Part shown: positions 13,567 through 42,034 of the stretch, piece after piece
Numbering within the stretch: position 1 is the stretch's first letter
How the letters are laid out: each line of letters starts with the position of its first letter
Origin: an uncultured Acidobacteriota bacterium
GTDB lineage: Bacteria; Acidobacteriota; CAIWXX01
Direction of reading: 5' to 3'
Length of the DNA stretch: 47,543 nt
Assembly (NCBI GenBank): GCA_903916735.1
Contig: CAIWXX010000093.1
Span: 1-47,543, forward strand
Translations under genes and position numbers: made by a program
The notes under the pieces: generated by a model
Database searches by the model: none
Told to the model about the DNA's origin: nothing
Seen by the model: the letters and a program-made list of their open reading frames with translations, nothing else

Positions 13567-14982
13567 CTAGAGTAATGTTCGGATGTCAGTGATAGCGCCA
13601 TTGACAGCGGAAGCGGCAGCAGTCAGCGGGCTCGCCAGGAAAGTGCGCCCGCCCTTTCCCTGGCGCCCTTCAAAGTTGCGATTGCTCGTCGATACGCAAT
13701 ACTCGCCCGGCAGGAGTCTGTCTCCGTTCATGGCGATACACATGGAGCATCCAGCCTCACGCCATTCGGCGCCTGCATCACGGAAAATAGTATCGAGTCC
13801 TTCGGCTTCGGCCCGCCTCTGCACGTCACGCGATCCCGGCACAATCAGGGTGCGAACTCTCGAATGTATCTTCCTTCCACGCAGAACTGAAGCCGCTGCG
13901 CGTAGGTCTTCGATGCGCCCATTTGTGCAACTGCCGATGAAAACCATGTTGACGTGCCGGCCCAGCAGTGGCTCTCCCGGCAGCAATCCCATGTACTCCA
14001 GCGCTTTCACCAGCGATTTTTTTTCGGCTGCGCCCTGAACGTCCGCCGGATCCGGGATCATGGATGAAATGGACATGCCCATTCCCGGGTTCGTTCCGAA
14101 TGTGATCATCGGCTCGATCTCAGCGGCAGTGAGTGAAATCTCTTGATCGCAGACACAACCGGCATCGCTCGGAAGGCTCTTCCAACGGCTTATGGCGGCC
14201 TCCCACGCAGCACCCTGCGGAGTGAATGGCCTGCCTGCCAGATATTCGTATGTCGTGTCGTCGGGTGCGATGAGGCCGGCTCGCGCGCCCGCCTCGATCG
14301 ACATGTTGCAGATGGTCATCCGCTCTTCCATTGAAAGCGAACGAATTGTCTCCCCCGTAAATTCGATGGTATGCCCTGTCGCTCCGCCGCTGCCGATCTT
14401 CGCGATCAGCGCGAGGATGATGTCTTTGGCCGTCACGCCCGCTTTGAGATCGCCATCGACACAAACCCGGCATATTTTGGATTTTCTCTGCAGAAGGCAC
14501 TGACTCGCCAGAACATGTTCAACTTCACTCGTGCCGATGCCGAATGCGAGAGCTCCGAAAGCTCCGTGCGTCGCGGTGTGGCTGTCCCCGCAGACAACCG
14601 TCATCCCGGGCTGCGTCAGCCCCAATTCAGGCCCGATGACATGGACAATTCCTTGCTTTTCGGAAAAGTAGTCAAAGCAGGTGATTCCGAATTCGCGGCT
14701 GTTGGCTTCGAGTGCGGCGACTTGGGTTTCAGCAACCGGATCTTCGAATGGGCGTGAGCGCGGAGTCGTCGGCGTGCTGTGGTCGACTGTCGAAAAGGTG
14801 AGATCCGGGCGGCGCACACGTAATCCGCGCCTCCTCAGCCCATCAAAAGCCTGTGGCGATGTCACTTCATGGACCAGATGCAGATCGATATAGAGCAATG
14901 CGGGCGCTCCAGGCTCTTCGGCAACCACATGCGAATCCCAGAGTTTTTCGATAATCGTACGAGGACGAGTTGTGTCTCTCAT
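13567..14982 (-). CDS. leuC: 3-isopropylmalate dehydratase large subunit
   Basis: The 471-residue catalytic subunit carries the 4Fe-4S aconitase-type cluster. Visible features are [12 protein letters not shown] at the N-terminus, the substrate-binding [14 protein letters not shown] motif, and cluster cysteines in GSCTNGR and in CSMCIAMN (separated by two residues there). The frame is open 21 codons upstream into leuB, but ATG 14982 aligns with the family and falls 22 bases after the leuB stop. Its ribosome binding site is weak, suggesting translational coupling to leuB. It acts with LeuD in the cytoplasm. Confidence 0.96.
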
Positions 14983-15004
14983 TTCATGTTCACTTGTATT
15001 GATG

Positions 15005-33053: not shown

Positions 33054-34583
33054 CTATTGGCGCCGCGAAAAATCCGATAACTCTTCCACTCTTACCTTAT
33101 ACCCGAATACTTCCTGAAAAAGGCCGTCTTTACGTCCCATCGCCCATTTCTCCAAAGTCGAATCCCCGTACACTTTGATCTCTATCGTGACGGTCGACCC
33201 ATTGACCGTCACGTCGACGGGGTGAACGACGCCGATGTGGTCGCGATCCAGAGCGTCGGCGACACGCAAGATAGCCGCGAGTTTCTGCATGGCGGACCGG
33301 TCGGAACGATCGAGAGGCCGCAGATTTCCATGAGAAGGCTTTGGCGTGGCTTTTCTGTGATAGCGGGCCACATTGGCCACAATCCGGCGTTCATGTAAGG
33401 CGAGCCCGGGTAGATTTGAATTCATAATGAGATAAAACGAGTGCTTGTGATGCCGGCGTTCGTTCACAAAGAAGCCGATGTCATGAAGGATGGCAGCCGT
33501 GTCGAGGAGGGGCGCCCATTCCGGATCGAGTCGGTGTATGTGTTCCAGTTTTTCGAACAGTAGTTGAGCGTTATGCGCGACCCTCAACGCATGACTTTCG
33601 TCAAATTGATAACGCCGCCCCAGAAACAGCGCCGCGTCCCGAAGGTTTGCATGAGCGGGTTCGCTATAAGCGCTGTCGGCCAGCTCCTTCGCCACGCCTT
33701 CCTTCAATCCCACGAGAGGCGCGACGAGGCTCTCCATGCCGGTTGCTTCCATGACACCGTAAATAACGATTGCCGCCGGTAATATGACATCGGCGCGGTC
33801 GGCGTCGAGGCCGAGTTGAGTCATCCGGTCGTGGTAGCTCATGCTCGAAAGCTTCATCACCAAATCGCGTATCTCATCGCGAGTCACTTCGGGTGAGGGT
33901 GCATTTTCCGGCGCCATTTCTTGAGGCCGCAACAACGCCGTCATTTTTTCAACGTTTCCGCCCGTCGCGAAATAGTGATCAGCTTTGAATCCCTCAGTCG
34001 CCTTCTGCAGATGACCGCGAAGTCCGCCGATGTAATCTCTGACAAGAAGCGGGAAATTCGCTTCGTCTCCGCCTTCGCCGGCGAGTATTTCGAGGAGTCG
34101 AACGGCGCCGATTTTGTAAGTCTCGACCTTAGTGAGCTTGCCGTTTGTGACTAGCAGAAGTTCCATGGAGCCGCCCCCGAGCTCCGTGATGAGCGCATTC
34201 ATGCCGCTCATGTCGATCCGGCTCTGAATCGCCTGATGAATGAGCCGTCCCTCTTCCACGCCGGTGATCAATTCGAGTTCAATGCCGCTTTCTCTGCGAA
34301 TGCGCTCGATCAGCACATCACGATTGGATGCTTCGCGAGTGGCGCTCGTCGCGATCGTTCGACTCAGTTCAACATGGTGCTGCCTCTGAAGGTCGGCGTA
34401 ATAAGCAAAAGTCTTCACGACTCGGGTGATGGTCTCCCCGGAAATGCGACCTCTCAAAAAGACATCATGTCCGAGCCGTACGGGCTCACGATAATTTTCA
34501 ATTGGCGTGAATTTCCCGCCGGATGCAGTAGCCAGCAGCATTCTTAGCGCGTTGCTTCCGAGGTCAATGACGGCAATATTCAT
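33054..34583 (-). CDS. ppx: Exopolyphosphatase / Ppx-GppA phosphatase
   Basis: The 509-residue enzyme degrades polyphosphate (and possibly pppGpp) from the chain end. The actin-like fold shows the phosphate loop VIDLGSNALRM (5-15), the catalytic Glu in TGVEEGRLI (107-115) and the second loop ELGGGSMEL (134-142). A C-terminal HD-type domain follows, with AAILHDIGFFVN (363-374), RHHKHS (377-382) and RVADALDRDH (440-449), as in the long Ppx class. It is divergent from phoB across 228 bases. With ppk1 at 39.9 kb it completes polyphosphate turnover. Ppx versus GppA cannot be settled from sequence alone. Confidence 0.93.
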   Translation of the reverse strand: MNIAVIDLGSNALRMLLATASGGKFTPIENYREPVRLGHDVFLRGRISGETITRVVKTFAYYADLQRQHHVELSRTIATSATREASNRDVLIERIRRESGIELELITGVEEGRLIHQAIQSRIDMSGMNALITELGGGSMELLLVTNGKLTKVETYKIGAVRLLEILAGEGGDEANFPLLVRDYIGGLRGHLQKATEGFKADHYFATGGNVEKMTALLRPQEMAPENAPSPEVTRDEIRDLVMKLSSMSYHDRMTQLGLDADRADVILPAAIVIYGVMEATGMESLVAPLVGLKEGVAKELADSAYSEPAHANLRDAALFLGRRYQFDESHALRVAHNAQLLFEKLEHIHRLDPEWAPLLDTAAILHDIGFFVNERRHHKHSFYLIMNSNLPGLALHERRIVANVARYHRKATPKPSHGNLRPLDRSDRSAMQKLAAILRVADALDRDHIGVVHPVDVTVNGSTVTIEIKVYGDSTLEKWAMGRKDGLFQEVFGYKVRVEELSDFSRRQ

Positions 34584-34811
34584 CGGATCGTCACATTGAT
34601 CGGCGATGCGGATTCTCGATTGAGATCATGCATGGAGTTTCTCTCCTCAATCCGGATTATTGACGAATGTCTTCAACTTGGCAAATTCCCGCGGTGATAG
34701 GGTTATTTTTGCGTGGGTTTGTTATCGTCGGCTTATGAAACTCCCGCCAAATCGGAGCCGTTCTTAATCTGTATTGCAACATTCCCCTCTTTTAGAGTAT
34801 GTACGTTGTCG

Positions 34812-35498
34812 ATGCCAAAGCACATATTGATCGTCGATGATGAGAAGGATATCGTGGCTCTGCTTGTCTACAACCTGGAAAAAGAAGGGTACACGACCAA
34901 GACCGCACACACGGGCACCGCGGCACTGAAGGAAGCGCAGAATTTGCCCGATCTCGTCCTGCTTGATGTCATGATGCCTGAAGTGGATGGTCTTGAAGTG
35001 GCGAGGCGCTTGAAAAAAGAAACAGCCACTGCCGGCATTCCCATCATCTTTCTGACGGCCAAAGGAACCGAGATCGACGAAGTTGTCGGCCTGGAGCTCG
35101 GGGCCGAAGATTACATTGTGAAACCGATCAGCATCCCCAAACTTCTCGCCCGGATCCGCGCCGTGCTGCGCCGGCATGAAAACGTTGACACCCCGTCGTT
35201 GCTCCCCCTCCGATTCGGCGATGTCGAAGTTCATCCAGCCGGCTATCGCGCCATCATCGCCGGGAGGGAAGTTGGTTTCACAAAGAAAGAATTCGATATT
35301 CTTGTTCGCCTGGCGACCAAAGCCGGTACCGTCCTATCACGAGATGCTCTTCTGGACGCCGTTTGGGGAGATGATGTTCACGTCATCGACCGAACGATTG
35401 ATGTCCATATCAGGAAAATCCGCGAGAAATTGGGTTCTTCAGCCGATCTCCTGGAAACGGTGAAAGGGGTCGGCTATCGGATCCGGGAGCGGCGATGA
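34812..35498 (+). CDS. phoB: Response regulator, PhoB/OmpR family
   Basis: The 228-residue regulator has a receiver domain with acidic pocket Asp9/Asp10, phosphoacceptor Asp52 (LVLLDVMMP) and Lys in YIVKP (about 104), then a winged-helix DNA-binding domain (about 130-226) with KEFDILVRLATKAG, VWGDD and RTIDVHIRKIREKLG. ATG 34812 matches the family start. There is no Shine-Dalgarno sequence, and an in-frame TTG lies two codons earlier. It overlaps the kinase gene by four bases. PhoB identity is inferred from the adjacent phoR-type kinase and the Pho-box-like array upstream of the porin-pstS operon. Confidence 0.9.
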   Translation: MPKHILIVDDEKDIVALLVYNLEKEGYTTKTAHTGTAALKEAQNLPDLVLLDVMMPEVDGLEVARRLKKETATAGIPIIFLTAKGTEIDEVVGLELGAEDYIVKPISIPKLLARIRAVLRRHENVDTPSLLPLRFGDVEVHPAGYRAIIAGREVGFTKKEFDILVRLATKAGTVLSRDALLDAVWGDDVHVIDRTIDVHIRKIREKLGSSADLLETVKGVGYRIRERR

Positions 35499-36916
35499 AA
35501 AGCATTGGGACGAAGCTCGCTTTTCTGATTCTGACTCTCGTTGCTGCCGCTGCTGCATCAGTGGCTCTGATCTCAGGGCTGGAAATGGAGTCCTTTTATA
35601 AAGATCGGCTTGTCGATGACCTTCTCAGACAAGGACGGCAGTTTGAATATCTTTTCCGGCAGCCCACGCCACCAGGCTACGAAATCGTGGCCGGAATGGC
35701 ACAGCGGCTGAACGTGCGTCTGACGCTCATCTCCCCGACCGGGCAGGTTCTTTTTGATTCCGATGTCCAGGAAAGCCGGCTCGGCGCCCTGGAGAATCAT
35801 CTCAATCGACCTGAAGTACAGGAGGCTCGCGTCCATGGGCACGGCGTTGATATCCGCCACAGCAACACTATCGGTGTCGATATGCTGTATGTCGCTCGAC
35901 TTCTCGACTCACCCCTTCACGGCACTTCACCCGAATGCATTCGGGTTGCCATGCTCTATGCCGATGTTCAGGGGGCGATGAGAGGAATCAAACAAAAGGC
36001 CGCCATTGCCGGTCTCGTCTCGCTCATCCTGGCGGGAATTGCATGCTTCATCGTTTCGCGCCGAATTGTCAAACCCATTGTACAGATGGCCGCGGATGCG
36101 GATGAGATCAAGCGAGGCAATTTGGAGCGGCAGATCCGGACAGGAGGCGACGATGAGATCGGACAACTCGCCGTGGCTCTCCGCGAAATGGTCGATAAAT
36201 TGAAAACCGATATCGCCCAGATGAGGAAGCTGGAACGAATGCGAAGTGAATTCCTCGGAAATGTGTCTCACGAGCTTCGCACGCCGATTTTCGCAATCCA
36301 GGGTTTTATTGAAACGCTCCTCGGCGGTGCCGTCAATGATCCCAAGACCAATGTCGAATTTCTCCGGAAGGCTCTTGATCATACGGTTCGACTCAATACG
36401 CTGCTGAATGATCTGATCGAAATTTCGAGAATCGAAACCGGCGAGATGAAGCTCAGCTTTCGCTACGTCGATGTCAGGGAGCTGCTGGAGGATATTTTTG
36501 ACGAGATGAAACCGGTAGCGCTCCAGAAATCGATTTCAATTGAGCTGGCCCGCGGCCAGGATGGACGCGTGGAAGCGCTTGGAGATCGGGAACGGCTCCG
36601 GCAGACACTCACCAATCTCATCGACAATGCCGTCAAGTACACGGATCCGGGAGGCCGGGTGAGCATTGGGTTCAACAATGAACCGGGGCAGGTCAGAATT
36701 TTTGTCGTCGACACAGGTTGTGGGATTGCTGAGGAACACATATCGCGGATTTTTGAGAGGTTCTATCGAGTCGACAAGGACCGTTCGCGCGATGCCGGTG
36801 GCACGGGACTTGGACTGGCGATCGTGAAGCATATAGTCGAAGCACACGGGAGCCATGTTGATGTCGAGTCGACGCCCGGCCGCGGCAGCACATTCAGTTT
36901 TGCGCTGAAGTGCTGA
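35495..36916 (+). CDS. phoR: Phosphate-type sensor histidine kinase (PhoR/PhoP-R class)
   Basis: The 473-residue kinase has a first membrane helix (about 7-28), a periplasmic sensor region (29-165), a second helix (169-187), HAMP (188-243), HisKA with His259 in FLGNVSHELRTP, and HATPase with VDTGCGIAEE and DAGGTGLGLAIVKH. Unlike E. coli PhoR, which has a PAS domain and almost no periplasmic part, it has an extracytoplasmic domain, as in Gram-positive PhoR. An ATGA overlap with the regulator gene shows coupling. Signal assignment rests on context (ppx, porin, pstS, ppk). Confidence 0.92.
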   Translation: MKSIGTKLAFLILTLVAAAAASVALISGLEMESFYKDRLVDDLLRQGRQFEYLFRQPTPPGYEIVAGMAQRLNVRLTLISPTGQVLFDSDVQESRLGALENHLNRPEVQEARVHGHGVDIRHSNTIGVDMLYVARLLDSPLHGTSPECIRVAMLYADVQGAMRGIKQKAAIAGLVSLILAGIACFIVSRRIVKPIVQMAADADEIKRGNLERQIRTGGDDEIGQLAVALREMVDKLKTDIAQMRKLERMRSEFLGNVSHELRTPIFAIQGFIETLLGGAVNDPKTNVEFLRKALDHTVRLNTLLNDLIEISRIETGEMKLSFRYVDVRELLEDIFDEMKPVALQKSISIELARGQDGRVEALGDRERLRQTLTNLIDNAVKYTDPGGRVSIGFNNEPGQVRIFVVDTGCGIAEEHISRIFERFYRVDKDRSRDAGGTGLGLAIVKHIVEAHGSHVDVESTPGRGSTFSFALKC

Positions 36917-37251
36917 TGGCCGTGTGACCACCGACGAAGCCTTCGTCACTGCCGGCGACTATTCTTCTTCCCACCACCGGGCCATGTCGAATTCAACGGC
37001 TTCGAAGGGTTCCGGCCTGACGCGGTTGCATTACAATTATGATTGAGATGCCTTTTTAGTTTGTAGCTGTTTGAAGGAGTCGAGGGCGCAGAGGAATCAG
37101 TTTCCCTTCGCTCCTCTGCAGCAACCAATTCCTCGCACAACTGGCTAATGACGGCGCCAAAAATTCAATGAGATTTGTGATCACTGACAAATCTTATTTC
37201 GCGGGCTATTGATTGACTGGCACCTTTGTGCCCCCGCTGGAATAGGGATCG
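36917..37251. other. Intergenic region after phoR with two inverted repeats
   Basis: No gene is seen. GCAGAGGA (37088-37095) and TCCTCTGC (37112-37119) form an 8-pair stem with a 16-base loop and no T-run. AGATTTGT (37171-37178) and ACAAATCT (37187-37194) form an 8-pair stem with an 8-base loop (GATCACTG) followed by TATTTC. The second lies about 60 bases before the Pho-box array and could be an operator or a weak phoR terminator. Confidence 0.55.
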
Positions 37252-37306
37252 TTCATCATTTCTTAATATCCGCTTCATCAAGCGTTCACCATCCTCCCGG
37301 TAGACT
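37252..37306 (+). promoter_or_regulatory. Pho-box array and -10 of the porin-pstS operon
   Basis: Four 7-bp units start exactly every 11 bases: TTCATCA (37252), TTAATAT (37263), TTCATCA (37274) and TTCACCA (37285). The spacers are 4 bases. This is the geometry of PhoB/PhoP boxes, two tandem 22-bp sites. TAGACT (37301-37306) lies 9 bases after the last unit, as expected for a -10 where PhoB replaces a -35. An AAGGAGG ribosome site follows before ATG 37336. The unit sequence differs from the E. coli CTGTCAT. Confidence 0.78.
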
Positions 37307-37335
37307 TGGGTTTCAAACCATAAGGAGGTAATCGA

Positions 37336-38667
37336 ATGAGGTTTGATTCTAAGCAGATTGCGAAAGTTTTAATCGGGATGTTGGCCATCCTGATCTTTGC
37401 CGGGGCATTGGTTCCACGGCATCTCTCAGCGCAAGTTCTTTTCTATGAGGAAGTCGAAAAGGACGGCCGCATTTATGTTTTTAACACACCGGAACGATTG
37501 GCCATGTGGAAAGCATCCGGCGATATGGGGCAGGCCATAACCCTCGTCGGCCGCGGCCCTAACGGAGAAACAATCGTCGGTGAAAACGAAACGGCGATCG
37601 ACCTTTACAATTTCAAACATAATTTGCCCGGTTACGAACGGCCCACAGCACCACCTCCGCCGCCTCCGGCACCCTATCCGCAGGTCAAGGTCGGTGGAAC
37701 CGGCTACCTCTCTTATCAGAGCGGCACGACAAAGGGCGTTGACTACAACAAGTTCACAGTCAAGCGCGGCTACATCAATGTGAACGCCGCCATCTCATCC
37801 TATTTCTCCGCCCGATTCACTCCGGATTTGACGCAGGATGATACAGGCGATTACAAAGTGCGGATGAAATATGTCTATGGGTTATTCCAGGCGCCCAAGG
37901 CTGGATTCTTGACAAAACCGGCCGTGGAATTCGGTATGGTACATACGGCGTGGTTGGACTTCGAAGAAAAAATAAATCCCTACCGGATGCAGGACACAAT
38001 GTTCATGGAACGGGTCGGATTGTTCAGTTCGGCGGATGTGGGATTCACTTTCACATCGCTACTCGGGCCTGAAATGCCCGATGATTATCAGAAAACCGTC
38101 GGCAAGAATTATCCAGGACGATTCGGTTCAATCGCATTAGGTGTTTACAACGGCGGCGGCTACGCGGCGAAGGAAAACAACAAGAACAAACTCATGCAGG
38201 CTCGGTTCACCTTGCGGCCTCTTCCGGCCGTTCTTCCGGGTTTCCAGTTTTCCTACTTCGGCGTGACGGGGAAGGGCAATACGGATAAGGAACCGGATTT
38301 TACCCTTAATGCGATCATGGGAAGCTATGAACACAAGTATGTGAATGCGACCGCTCAATGGTTCGACGGAAAAGGCAGTGCCAATGGCGCTGCTGTCGAT
38401 GCCGCCGGCAAATCGCTTAACCGTAAAGGCTATTCTCTCTTCGCGGAATTCAAGCCGATTCCTAAATGGAGCGGTATGATCCGATACGACTTCTTTGATC
38501 CGAATAAGAATGTCGCCAATGACGCCACAAAGCGCACAATCGTGGGTGTCGCTTATCAGTTCATAAAAGGCAATTATCTCCTGGTCGACTACGACCGTCT
38601 CGCCTTCGAAAAGGACGGCGTCGACCCCGACACACGAACGCAGTGCACACTGCAAGTTAACTTCTAA
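37336..38667 (+). CDS. Outer-membrane porin, phosphate-selective (OprP/OprO) type
   Basis: The 443-residue protein has a signal peptide (about 1-32, cut near LSAQ), an unusual N-terminal extension (33-95) with RIYVFNTPERLAMWKASG, a polyproline hinge (APPPPPPAP) and a beta-barrel of about 330 residues with alternating aromatic strands. It ends in a C-terminal phenylalanine (LQVNF), the outer-membrane sorting signal. KRGYINVNAAISSYFSARFTP and the AxxEFGMVHT strand resemble the porin O/P family. It lies under a Pho-box array and 26 bases before pstS, so it probably admits phosphate under starvation. Selectivity is inferred from context. Confidence 0.86.
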   Translation: MRFDSKQIAKVLIGMLAILIFAGALVPRHLSAQVLFYEEVEKDGRIYVFNTPERLAMWKASGDMGQAITLVGRGPNGETIVGENETAIDLYNFKHNLPGYERPTAPPPPPPAPYPQVKVGGTGYLSYQSGTTKGVDYNKFTVKRGYINVNAAISSYFSARFTPDLTQDDTGDYKVRMKYVYGLFQAPKAGFLTKPAVEFGMVHTAWLDFEEKINPYRMQDTMFMERVGLFSSADVGFTFTSLLGPEMPDDYQKTVGKNYPGRFGSIALGVYNGGGYAAKENNKNKLMQARFTLRPLPAVLPGFQFSYFGVTGKGNTDKEPDFTLNAIMGSYEHKYVNATAQWFDGKGSANGAAVDAAGKSLNRKGYSLFAEFKPIPKWSGMIRYDFFDPNKNVANDATKRTIVGVAYQFIKGNYLLVDYDRLAFEKDGVDPDTRTQCTLQVNF

Positions 38668-38693: not shown

Positions 38694-39671
38694 ATGAATA
38701 TAAAAGCGACTGCTCGTGCTCTCGCACTGACCTTCATGGCCACCGGGGCCATATGGGCTCAGGCTGTGAAAGTTGATTCCTCGATTCCCACGTACCGACA
38801 AATACAGGGCATTTCCGGCAGCATCAAGAGCGTTGGGTCGGATACGATGAACAATGAGATGACCCTTTGGGCTGAAGGATTCCGCAAGTTGTACCCCAAC
38901 ATCAAGATCGAAATCGAAGGCAAAGGCTCGGGGACGGCGCCCCCGGCACTGACAGCCGGGACATCTCAGTTCGGTCCCATGTCGCGCACTATGAAAGACG
39001 ACGAGATCGACAAATTCGAAAAGAAATTCGGATATAAGCCGACGGCTGTGCGCACATCGATCGACATGCTCGCTGTCTATGTCAACAAAGATAACCCTAT
39101 TGCCTGTCTGTCGATGCAACAGTTGGATGCGATTTTCTCAAAAACCCGCCGGAGCGGCGCGTCCAAAGACATCAAGACATGGGGAGACCTGGGATTGACG
39201 GGCGAGTGGGCCAATAGGCTGATCAGCCTCTACGGCCGCAACAGCGCGTCGGGAACCTATGGCTACTTCAAAGAACACGCTCTCTTCAAGGGTGATTACA
39301 AGGATACGGTCAAGGAACAACCGGGCACATCATCCGTCGTTCAAGCTGTTGCCTCCGATCAGTTCGGGATCGGCTACGGTGGTATCGGATACAAAACCGC
39401 CGATGTGCGCGCTGTTCCAATCTCGGTGAAAAACGGCGGTGAGTGTGTTGACACAACCCCTGAGAACGGGTACTCCGGAAAATATCCGCTCTCCAGGTTC
39501 CTGTACATCTACATCAACAAATCGCCCAATGAGTCCTTGGATCCACTGCGTGCGGAGTATATTAAATACATTCTGAGCCAGGAAGGACAAGAGGCTGTGG
39601 TGAAGGACGGATATCTTCCTCTGACGAGAAAGCTTGATGATGAAGAGCGCCAGGCGCTCAAGCTCAATTAA
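38694..39671 (+). CDS. pstS: Periplasmic phosphate-binding protein PstS
   Basis: The 325-residue protein binds phosphate in the periplasm for an ABC importer. A signal peptide (1-22, ending IWAQA) precedes the mature chain with KSVGSDTMNN, EGKGSGTAPPAL, FGPMSRTM and GRNSASGTYGYF, the loops that contact phosphate. Spacing to the porin is 26 bases with GTGAGG upstream. pstC, pstA and pstB do not follow: a strong terminator comes 30 bases later, then ppk1. The importer must be elsewhere, or this protein serves another role such as delivering to the porin or a sensor. Confidence 0.95.
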   Translation: MNIKATARALALTFMATGAIWAQAVKVDSSIPTYRQIQGISGSIKSVGSDTMNNEMTLWAEGFRKLYPNIKIEIEGKGSGTAPPALTAGTSQFGPMSRTMKDDEIDKFEKKFGYKPTAVRTSIDMLAVYVNKDNPIACLSMQQLDAIFSKTRRSGASKDIKTWGDLGLTGEWANRLISLYGRNSASGTYGYFKEHALFKGDYKDTVKEQPGTSSVVQAVASDQFGIGYGGIGYKTADVRAVPISVKNGGECVDTTPENGYSGKYPLSRFLYIYINKSPNESLDPLRAEYIKYILSQEGQEAVVKDGYLPLTRKLDDEERQALKLN

Positions 39672-39904: not shown

Positions 39905-42034
39905 ATGGCGAAGGACACACCGAATCCCGGAACCGAACAGGCTTCGCAATCGATCGTGAATCTCAACGACCCGGGACTCTATATCGATCGCGAGTTAAGT
40001 CTCATCGAGTTTTTTTGTCGTGTGTTGGAAGAAGCGCGGGATGAGAGCAACCCGCTTTTGGAACGGGTGAAGTTCCTATCCATCGTGAGTTCCAACCTGG
40101 CTGAGTTCTTCATGGTTCGTGTCGCAGGACTCAAACAGCAGATCGATGCCGGTATTGTTGAACCGGCGCTGTCGGGATTGACACCTGCCGAACAGCTGGT
40201 GGCCGTCCATAAATCCGCTGTGCAATTACTGAAGCAGGCGAGGGTGTGCCTTCGCGATCTTCTGCCGCGGCTTGAGCAGTCGGGGGTCCGAATTATGGAT
40301 TATGCGGATCTCACTGAAGAGCAAAGGAGTGTTGTCAACCAATATTTCGAGGAGATTGTTTCTCCAGTGCTCACGCCTCTGGCGCATGATCCGGGAAGGC
40401 CCTTTCCGCACATCTCCAATATGAGCTTGAATCTGGCTGTCTCGATTCGCGATCAGGAGGGTGAGGAGCACTTTGCGCGTGTCAAAGTGCCCAACACGCT
40501 GCCTCGATTGGTGCCGGTCAAAACTCATCATGATGATGAGGAATCGGATACCTCCATGCATGTGACGCACTGCCTCGTCTGGCTGGAACAAGTGATCGCC
40601 GCCAATTTGAAATCGCTCTTCCCGGGCATGCACATCATAAGAGCTCATCCTTTCCGCATCACTCGCGATGCTGAAGTCGTGATCCAGGAGTTGGAAGCCG
40701 AGGATTTGTTGGAAACGGTTGAGCGAGGAGTGCGGCAGAGGCGCTTCGGATCGGTCGTACGCGTGACAATTGATCAGGCAATGCCGGCTGACATCCGCGA
40801 CATCCTGATTGAAAACCTCGGCATGGACGCGAATGACATCTATACGGTTGAACCACCGTTGGGCATGAGCGACTTGATGCAGCTATACGGCGTCGATCGC
40901 CGAGACTTGAAGTATCCGTCTTTTACGCCGGCGACTCCAGCCGTCCTGGACGAAAATGACGATGATATCTTTGCGGCCATCCGCCGCCAGGACATTTTGT
41001 TGCATCATCCGTACGACACTTTCACTCCTGTCGTTGAGTTCCTCAAGAAAGCGGCCCGTGATCCAAATGTATTGGCGATCAAACAAACCCTTTACCGAGT
41101 CGGTCGCAACTCGCCTGTAGTCGAAGCCTTGTTGGACGCAGCCGTTCGAGGAAAGCAGGTGGCTGTCCTCGTCGAGCTCAAGGCGCGCTTCGACGAAGAG
41201 AGCAACATTGAATGGTCGAGGGCGCTGGAGCGGGAAGGAGTCCATGTTGTTTACGGGTTGCTGGGTTTGAAGACCCATTCGAAAATCGCGTTGGTCGTCC
41301 GGCATGAGGGCGAACGCATCCGGCGTTACGTTCATTTGGCCACAGGCAATTACAATCCCGTGACGGCGCAGCTCTACACGGATCTGGGTCTCTTTACATG
41401 CGACGATGAGATCGGCGCTGATGCTTCCGATGTGTTTAATTTTCTGACCGGCTACTCAGCCAAGCATGACTATCGTAAATTTCTTGTCGCTCCAATCAAC
41501 CTGCGCAGCGGCTTCGAATCATTGATCCGGCGCGAGATCGAACATCAACAAAAGGGCGAGCCGGGCCATTTGATTTTCAAGGTCAATTCGCTGGTTGATA
41601 AGCAAATGATCCGGTTGCTCTATAAGGCGTCGCAAGCGGGCGTGAAAGTTGATTTATTGGTGCGCGGCATGTGTTGTTTGCGTCCAGGCTTGCCCGGAAT
41701 CAGCGACACAATTCGAGTGACGAGTGTGGTAGGACGTTTCCTGGAACATAGCCGCATCTTTTATTTTCGCAACGGCGGCAATGAACAGATCTACCTGGGC
41801 AGTGCCGATTTGATGATGCGCAATCTCGACCGGCGCGTCGAAATTCTTTTCCCCGTCCAGGATGTGCGGCTGATCCGGCAACTGCGAGATGAAGTCCTGG
41901 CGACCTATTTGGCTGATAACGTCAAGGCGCGTCATATGTCGTCTGGTGGAATCTATCAGCGCGCGGACTGCACGCCGGAAGGAGCGCCGCTGGACGCGCA
42001 GGCCACCTTCATCAACCGGCGTCAGGTTCGATAA
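39905..42034 (+). CDS. ppk: Polyphosphate kinase 1
   Basis: The 709-residue membrane-associated enzyme reversibly builds polyphosphate from ATP. The N-terminal domain begins YIDRELSLIEFFCRVLEEA. The phosphohistidine is His458 in GLKTHSK (E. coli His435), with HLATGNYN next to it. The second essential histidine is His615 in RFLEHSRIFYF. The ATP-binding ELKARFDEESNIEWSRALE and CCLRPGLPG segments are intact. An AGGAGG site precedes ATG at about 9 bases. A TATGAT box near 39861 may be its -10, but no matching -35 or Pho box was found. Confidence 0.97.
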   Translation: MAKDTPNPGTEQASQSIVNLNDPGLYIDRELSLIEFFCRVLEEARDESNPLLERVKFLSIVSSNLAEFFMVRVAGLKQQIDAGIVEPALSGLTPAEQLVAVHKSAVQLLKQARVCLRDLLPRLEQSGVRIMDYADLTEEQRSVVNQYFEEIVSPVLTPLAHDPGRPFPHISNMSLNLAVSIRDQEGEEHFARVKVPNTLPRLVPVKTHHDDEESDTSMHVTHCLVWLEQVIAANLKSLFPGMHIIRAHPFRITRDAEVVIQELEAEDLLETVERGVRQRRFGSVVRVTIDQAMPADIRDILIENLGMDANDIYTVEPPLGMSDLMQLYGVDRRDLKYPSFTPATPAVLDENDDDIFAAIRRQDILLHHPYDTFTPVVEFLKKAARDPNVLAIKQTLYRVGRNSPVVEALLDAAVRGKQVAVLVELKARFDEESNIEWSRALEREGVHVVYGLLGLKTHSKIALVVRHEGERIRRYVHLATGNYNPVTAQLYTDLGLFTCDDEIGADASDVFNFLTGYSAKHDYRKFLVAPINLRSGFESLIRREIEHQQKGEPGHLIFKVNSLVDKQMIRLLYKASQAGVKVDLLVRGMCCLRPGLPGISDTIRVTSVVGRFLEHSRIFYFRNGGNEQIYLGSADLMMRNLDRRVEILFPVQDVRLIRQLRDEVLATYLADNVKARHMSSGGIYQRADCTPEGAPLDAQATFINRRQVR

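Follow-up and report, generated by a model that had tools for sequence, protein, structure and literature searches.

The repeat upstream of the porin gene in the window (the whole 47,543-nt stretch of DNA analysed here, from an uncultured Acidobacteriota bacterium) is in all likelihood the operator of a PhoB-activated promoter, one that also replaces the -35 element and that is predicted to serve porin-pstS and perhaps ppk. It comprises four head-to-tail 11-nt units on the forward strand, whose heptamers are given here in a common register. Unit 1, TCGTTCATCAT (37249-37259), carries the conserved heptamer GTTCATC at 37251-37257. It is followed by TTCTTAATATC (37260-37270, heptamer CTTAATA at 37262-37268), CGCTTCATCAA (37271-37281, heptamer CTTCATC at 37273-37279) and finally GCGTTCACCAT (37282-37292, heptamer GTTCACC at 37284-37290), which covers the -35 region. 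The -10 element TAGACT, of the form TAN3T, lies on the same strand at 37301-37306, 10 nt past GTTCACC and 19 nt from the start of unit 4, and a Shine-Dalgarno sequence AAGGAGG (37322-37328, +) precedes the porin ATG at 37336.

The original prediction had placed four 7-mers, each 11 bp apart, at 37252 (TTCATCA), 37263 (TTAATAT), 37274 (TTCATCA) and 37285 (TTCACCA), followed 9 nt later by TAGACT and then by AAGGAGG and the porin start, and all of these were confirmed. Its reading of the repeat as a four-unit Pho box was also borne out, by profile score, shuffles and placement before phosphate genes. The spelling of the unit as TTCATCA is one base out of register, as judged by a de novo model from 79 pstS promoters, which gives a CTTAACA-type frame. 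In the former register unit 2, TTAATAT, has three mismatches to TTCAYCA; shifted one base to the left it becomes CTTAATA and matches the de novo consensus CTTAACA at 6/7 positions.

Unit model and genomic placement of the box

The unit model was derived from the 250-bp upstream regions of 79 pstS homologues, found in many phyla with the window PstS as query; the window site was excluded and a tandem-unit model was fitted by EM. The fit clearly preferred a spacing of 11 (LLR 309, versus at most 110 for spacings of 8, 9, 10 and 12-15). The resulting profile spans 11 columns around a core of [CT]-[TG]-T-[AC]-A-[CT]-A, and it was called in 65/79 of the promoters. All four window units score positive against this profile (3.7-9.7 bits), with unit 2 as the top scorer at 9.7 bits. 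Together they reach 24.1 bits, while the next non-overlapping place on either strand of the 47.5 kb reaches 6.9, and the window box gave no signal with the unit profile at spacings other than 11. By sequence, the units are classed with the widespread (C/G)TT(A/C)A(C/T)-type Pho box. A Pho box is defined by at least two direct repeat units at an 11-bp period, of which the window has four, and the element carries every Pho box feature that can be read from sequence.

An alternative is that the repeat is a functionless periodicity arising by chance or from low complexity. This genome has many TCATCA-like words, and patterns that allow two to three mismatches reach background: strict TTCAYCA-N4-TTCAYCA has 226 matches at two mismatches, and the three-unit pattern at up to three mismatches has 51 matches versus 57 in the control. 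However, the score of the window box was never reached in 20,000 dinucleotide shuffles of the 419-bp intergenic region. The box is moreover conserved in a genome of another genus of the same family (G001, see below), the -10 lies in a fixed register across pstS promoters, and the only three exact sites of the genome all precede phosphate operons. A chance origin is therefore exceedingly improbable.

These three sites were obtained with the degenerate core KTMAY(N6)x4, which has 3 exact matches in 5.37 Mb and none for the reversed-pattern control. As a motif for finding the whole regulon, which the original prediction had hoped for in TTCATCA, this degenerate core serves well, whereas the strict TTCAYCA pattern does not: it finds the window site exactly and, with one or two mismatches, only chance-like sites. 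It is only at 0-1 mismatches that sites rise above background in the genome pattern searches. Four-unit sites with one mismatch on contigs C65, C133 and C183 were rejected, being without recognisable phosphate genes downstream. C65 carries, at 14935-14994 (minus strand, locus L212), a T-rich run with a near Pho-like 11-bp periodicity, upstream of a 451-aa secreted protein of unknown function that by eye is not encoded by a phosphate gene.

All three exact sites, the window site, C36:2791 and C36:8316, precede phosphate-uptake operons, in keeping with the predicted enrichment (3/3 sites, control 0). The window site lies upstream of porin-pstS, then ppk1. Two pst operons lie on contig C36 (locus L187), where all PhoU matches of the genome are also found: C36:2791 is upstream of an operon that lacks a pstS of its own and consists of pstC (878 aa), pstA (611 aa) and pstB, and C36:8316 is upstream of pstS2-pstC-pstA-pstB-pstB-phoU. 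This PstC and PstA (L187 2862-5498 and 5477-7312) are unusually long, and in both the transporter domain is confined to a region near the C-terminus. A further three-unit box, CTTTATT/CTTAACC/CTTCATA, was seen in the same locus at C36:2733-2761 on the minus strand, pointing away from the pstC box. It is followed by TATAAAT, and the gene behind it begins MELGVIENSADLTHVALIGPLDMAG and afterwards seems frameshifted.

In G001, the sole exact four-unit match is located upstream of the porin homologue and reads GCCGTAATACA CACTTAACACC GCCGTCATTAG CCCGTCACCGC, then TACCAT, so that the 11-bp spacing is kept in the orthologous porin promoter. Together with the enrichment before phosphate genes, this means that the original prediction withstood those of its refuting checks that sequence can address. 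High-scoring boxes occur at the same three operons, the pstC box being followed by TACGAT and the pstS2 box by TAGTCT. G001 has its long pstC operon on the same contig (C70) as its porin gene. Since the porin promoters of distant relatives were not directly alignable, pst operons were used for comparison. The best three-unit score in 20 Acidobacteriota pst loci usually exceeded that of the reversed sequence by a wide margin. The phylum is Acidobacteriota: over 2.5 kb of the pst region, two genomes of this phylum have 79% DNA identity to named Geothrix/Holophagaceae contigs. Among 99 relatives, the exact four-unit core had 22 matches in 16 genomes, with 15 control matches, all from two genomes. 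The genes downstream of exact boxes include four PstS and Porin_5/Porin_O_P proteins. At about 7/17 exact sites in other Acidobacteriota, phosphate or porin genes were confirmed by tools; several of the remaining sites look like chance.

Promoter geometry, neighbouring genes and the candidate regulator

On the porin strand, the window promoter has no sigma-70 -35/-10 pair and no recognisable -35, and no Rfam elements were found in the 419-bp intergenic region. In 53 pstS promoters, TAN3T peaks at an offset of 18-19, counted from where the last detected unit begins, or at 11 bp beyond this in promoters whose final unit presumably escaped detection. The offset is 19 for the window TAGACT at 37301 and for TAAACT at C36:2791, and 18 in all three G001 promoters; at the third box of this genome the -10 is imperfect (CAGAAT). 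The -10 is thus located at the distance typical of PhoB promoters, as had been proposed, and the geometry matches that of E. coli, where Pho boxes lie 10 bp upstream of TAN3T (PMC1906773).

Downstream of the box, the outer membrane porin gene (37336-38667, +, 443 aa) is followed by pstS for the phosphate-binding protein (38694-39671, +; TIGR02136, 254.5 bits versus a cut-off of 206.6) and by ppk1 for polyphosphate kinase (39905-42034, +). With the threshold relaxed to E 10, the porin still matches no Pfam family, except for two meaningless weak matches, PF07396 (Phosphate-selective porin O/P) being unmatched at that threshold, and it has no sequence relative in the PDB. Its model (mean pLDDT 68) is a predicted beta barrel whose best PDB fold matches are general porins, with OprP (2o4v) at rank 11. 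The modelled fold thus supports the identity as a porin and leaves phosphate selectivity unsupported. Relatives in five other genomes are 44-56% identical over the barrel; matches in G001 and in one further genome cover mainly the N-terminal part ahead of it.

Upstream of the box lie a phoB-type response regulator gene (34812-35498, +) and a phoR/pnpS-type sensor kinase gene (35495-36916, +; HAMP, HisKA, HATPase), with a ppx/gppA exopolyphosphatase gene (33054-34583, -) as divergent neighbour. The window PhoB carries a PF00072 receiver and a PF00486 winged-helix domain, and its recognition helix RTIDVHIRKIREKL has a Lys aligned with E. coli Arg201. Its two best families are TIGR02154 (223.1 bits, cut-off 296.2) and NF053854 (235.8 bits, cut-off 270). 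Because the score lies below the cut-off, we call the regulator PhoB-type and keep it out of the NCBIfam equivalog; the TIGR02154 cut-off is reached in 0/25 other Acidobacteriota, and the window PhoR likewise scores below curated NCBIfam cut-offs. A window scan with the unit profile gave no convincing box for phoBR or ppk themselves. A two-unit Pho-like match, TTCATCGGATCGTCAC, was seen at 34576-34597, about 215 bp upstream of phoB and where the divergent ppx gene begins, with a chance-level score.

Other OmpR-family regulators also bind tandem heptamers about 11 bp apart, and this genome encodes several of them, so the box could in principle be the tandem operator of a different OmpR/PhoB-family response regulator. 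Exact boxes are found only before pst/porin operons, however, and phoB-phoR is adjacent to the window box. In addition, the window PhoB is 62% identical to its G001 orthologue, against 44% for the next paralogue in this genome, and its recognition helix fits the box identity as in other PhoBs. A different regulator is therefore unlikely, with a small residual probability, and the adjacent PhoB-type protein encoded at 34812, already favoured in the original prediction, is on sequence grounds very probably the regulator of all three boxes. When phosphate is scarce, PhoR would phosphorylate this PhoB, and phosphorylated molecules would occupy the four units in tandem, with the molecule at the -35 position (unit 4) bringing sigma-70 RNA polymerase to TAGACT.

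Box type and PhoB residue 201

Like the window box, the Bacillus subtilis PhoP box, TT(A/C/T)ACA, consists of tandem repeats and has no G ahead of the core. The E. coli Pho box shares with the window the 11-nt direct repeats in the same promoter orientation, the TCA(T/C) core, and TAN3T 10 bp downstream without a -35. The window differs from it in having T instead of G ahead of the TCA/TAA core, four regular units, and a PhoB with Lys in place of Arg201. Window unit 4 is identical to the Streptomyces PHO unit, GTTCACC (PMC4415409), and the Streptomyces PhoP PHO box also has 11-nt units, with window units 1 and 3 within 1-2 bases of GTTCACC; the regulator there comes from another branch, and window unit 2 drifts towards CTTAATA. 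CTTAA-type units are known from cyanobacteria (PMC1906773). The Synechocystis SphR box (CTTAACCT, 8 bp with a 3-bp linker) has the same 11-bp period and a CTTAA-type unit as in unit 2, but a cyanobacterial regulator and three described units.

Could TTCATCA nevertheless be a lineage-specific Pho box dialect, as first proposed? In its favour, 12/12 units of the three boxes in this genome have T at column 3. However, the same unit type lies upstream of pstS in Planctomycetota, Thermodesulfobacteriota, Bacteroidota and others, the Streptomyces unit is identical, and G001 has mixed G/T units; the dialect as first stated is thereby refuted. The open-access literature, as far as it was covered, yielded nothing relevant on Pho boxes in Acidobacteria. 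The description of the unit as non-enteric holds in part: a T does replace the G at one column, but some of the difference is an effect of register, as unit 1 read in the E. coli register is CGTTCAT, which is 5/7 identical to CTGTCAT.

When the window heptamers CGTTCAT/TCTTAAT are aligned with E. coli CTGTCAT, the main difference lies at column 3, where E. coli has G and the window T. A guanine is hydrogen-bonded by Arg201 in the complex of E. coli PhoB with DNA (PMC3973317, PMC3264566). Among the base-contacting residues of E. coli PhoB (T194, V197, R201, R219), the window PhoB keeps T194 and V197 and has Lys at 201 and 219, while the G001 PhoB has T194, V197, Arg201 and Lys at 219. The T found where E. 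coli has G is most likely due to the window PhoB having Lys in place of the guanine-reading Arg201.

We paired PhoB with boxes in 62 genomes, using box calling that is neutral among C, G and T at column 3; PhoB was taken as the best family match per genome or as the copy in the locus, a choice that may be wrong in some genomes. Genomes with Arg201 had G in 59/86 units, and 20/26 of them were at least half G, whereas those with another residue had G in 5/110 units and 0/36 were at least half G (Fisher p = 2.5e-11 across the 62 genomes). Twelve further Acidobacteriota pairs mostly agree with this rule; the one that disagrees has an unsure PhoB assignment. In a Bacteroidota MAG, the recognition helix of PhoB (RTIDVHIRKIREK) is identical to that of the window PhoB, and every unit of a four-unit box has T at column 3.

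The column-3 difference may also reflect genome composition or shared ancestry instead of residue 201, an explanation that we hold to be a real possibility, though the less probable one. Residue 201 switches few times on the PhoB tree (at least 4 times in 64 rows, 6 in 74 rows), and with some 4-6 switches the independent-pairs test is underpowered and cannot reach significance. On the other hand, the Arg effect persists when GC content is added to the model (t=10.6 for Arg, 1.1 for GC). An open scan over all PhoB positions puts residue 201 first for column 3, and of all box columns it is column 3 that this residue explains best. The known R201-guanine hydrogen bond and the orthologous promoters point the same way, with G in 0/12 units of this genome and 5/12 of those in G001 (Fisher p = 0.037), the predicted direction. 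The G-to-T difference from the E. coli box therefore appears to track one PhoB residue, as a correlation with few independent switches.

We lean towards the reading that, across bacteria, it is largely PhoB Arg201 that decides between the Pho box dialects, G-type (CTGTCAT/TGTAAC) and T/C-type (CTTAACA/GTTCAYC). It is likewise somewhat probable that the loss of Arg201 to Lys in this genus, with Arg in the same-family genus, went together with the absence of G from three orthologous boxes. Streptomyces GTTCACC has its G one column earlier, and residue 201 may therefore not explain that branch fully. The literature searched, itself incomplete in coverage, describes the R201-guanine contact and yielded no cross-phylum rule linking PhoB residue and box; the correlation between residue 201 and box base is new here.

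For an Acidobacteriota lineage that has been little studied, the analysis provides the computed core of a Pho regulon, together with an 11-nt Pho box profile usable across many phyla. If the dialect reading is true, the box would be predictable from the PhoB sequence. Were the residue-201 rule to hold, the Pho regulons of uncultured bacteria could be predicted from PhoB sequence alone, and operator and regulator would form a clean case of co-evolution, testable by single substitutions.
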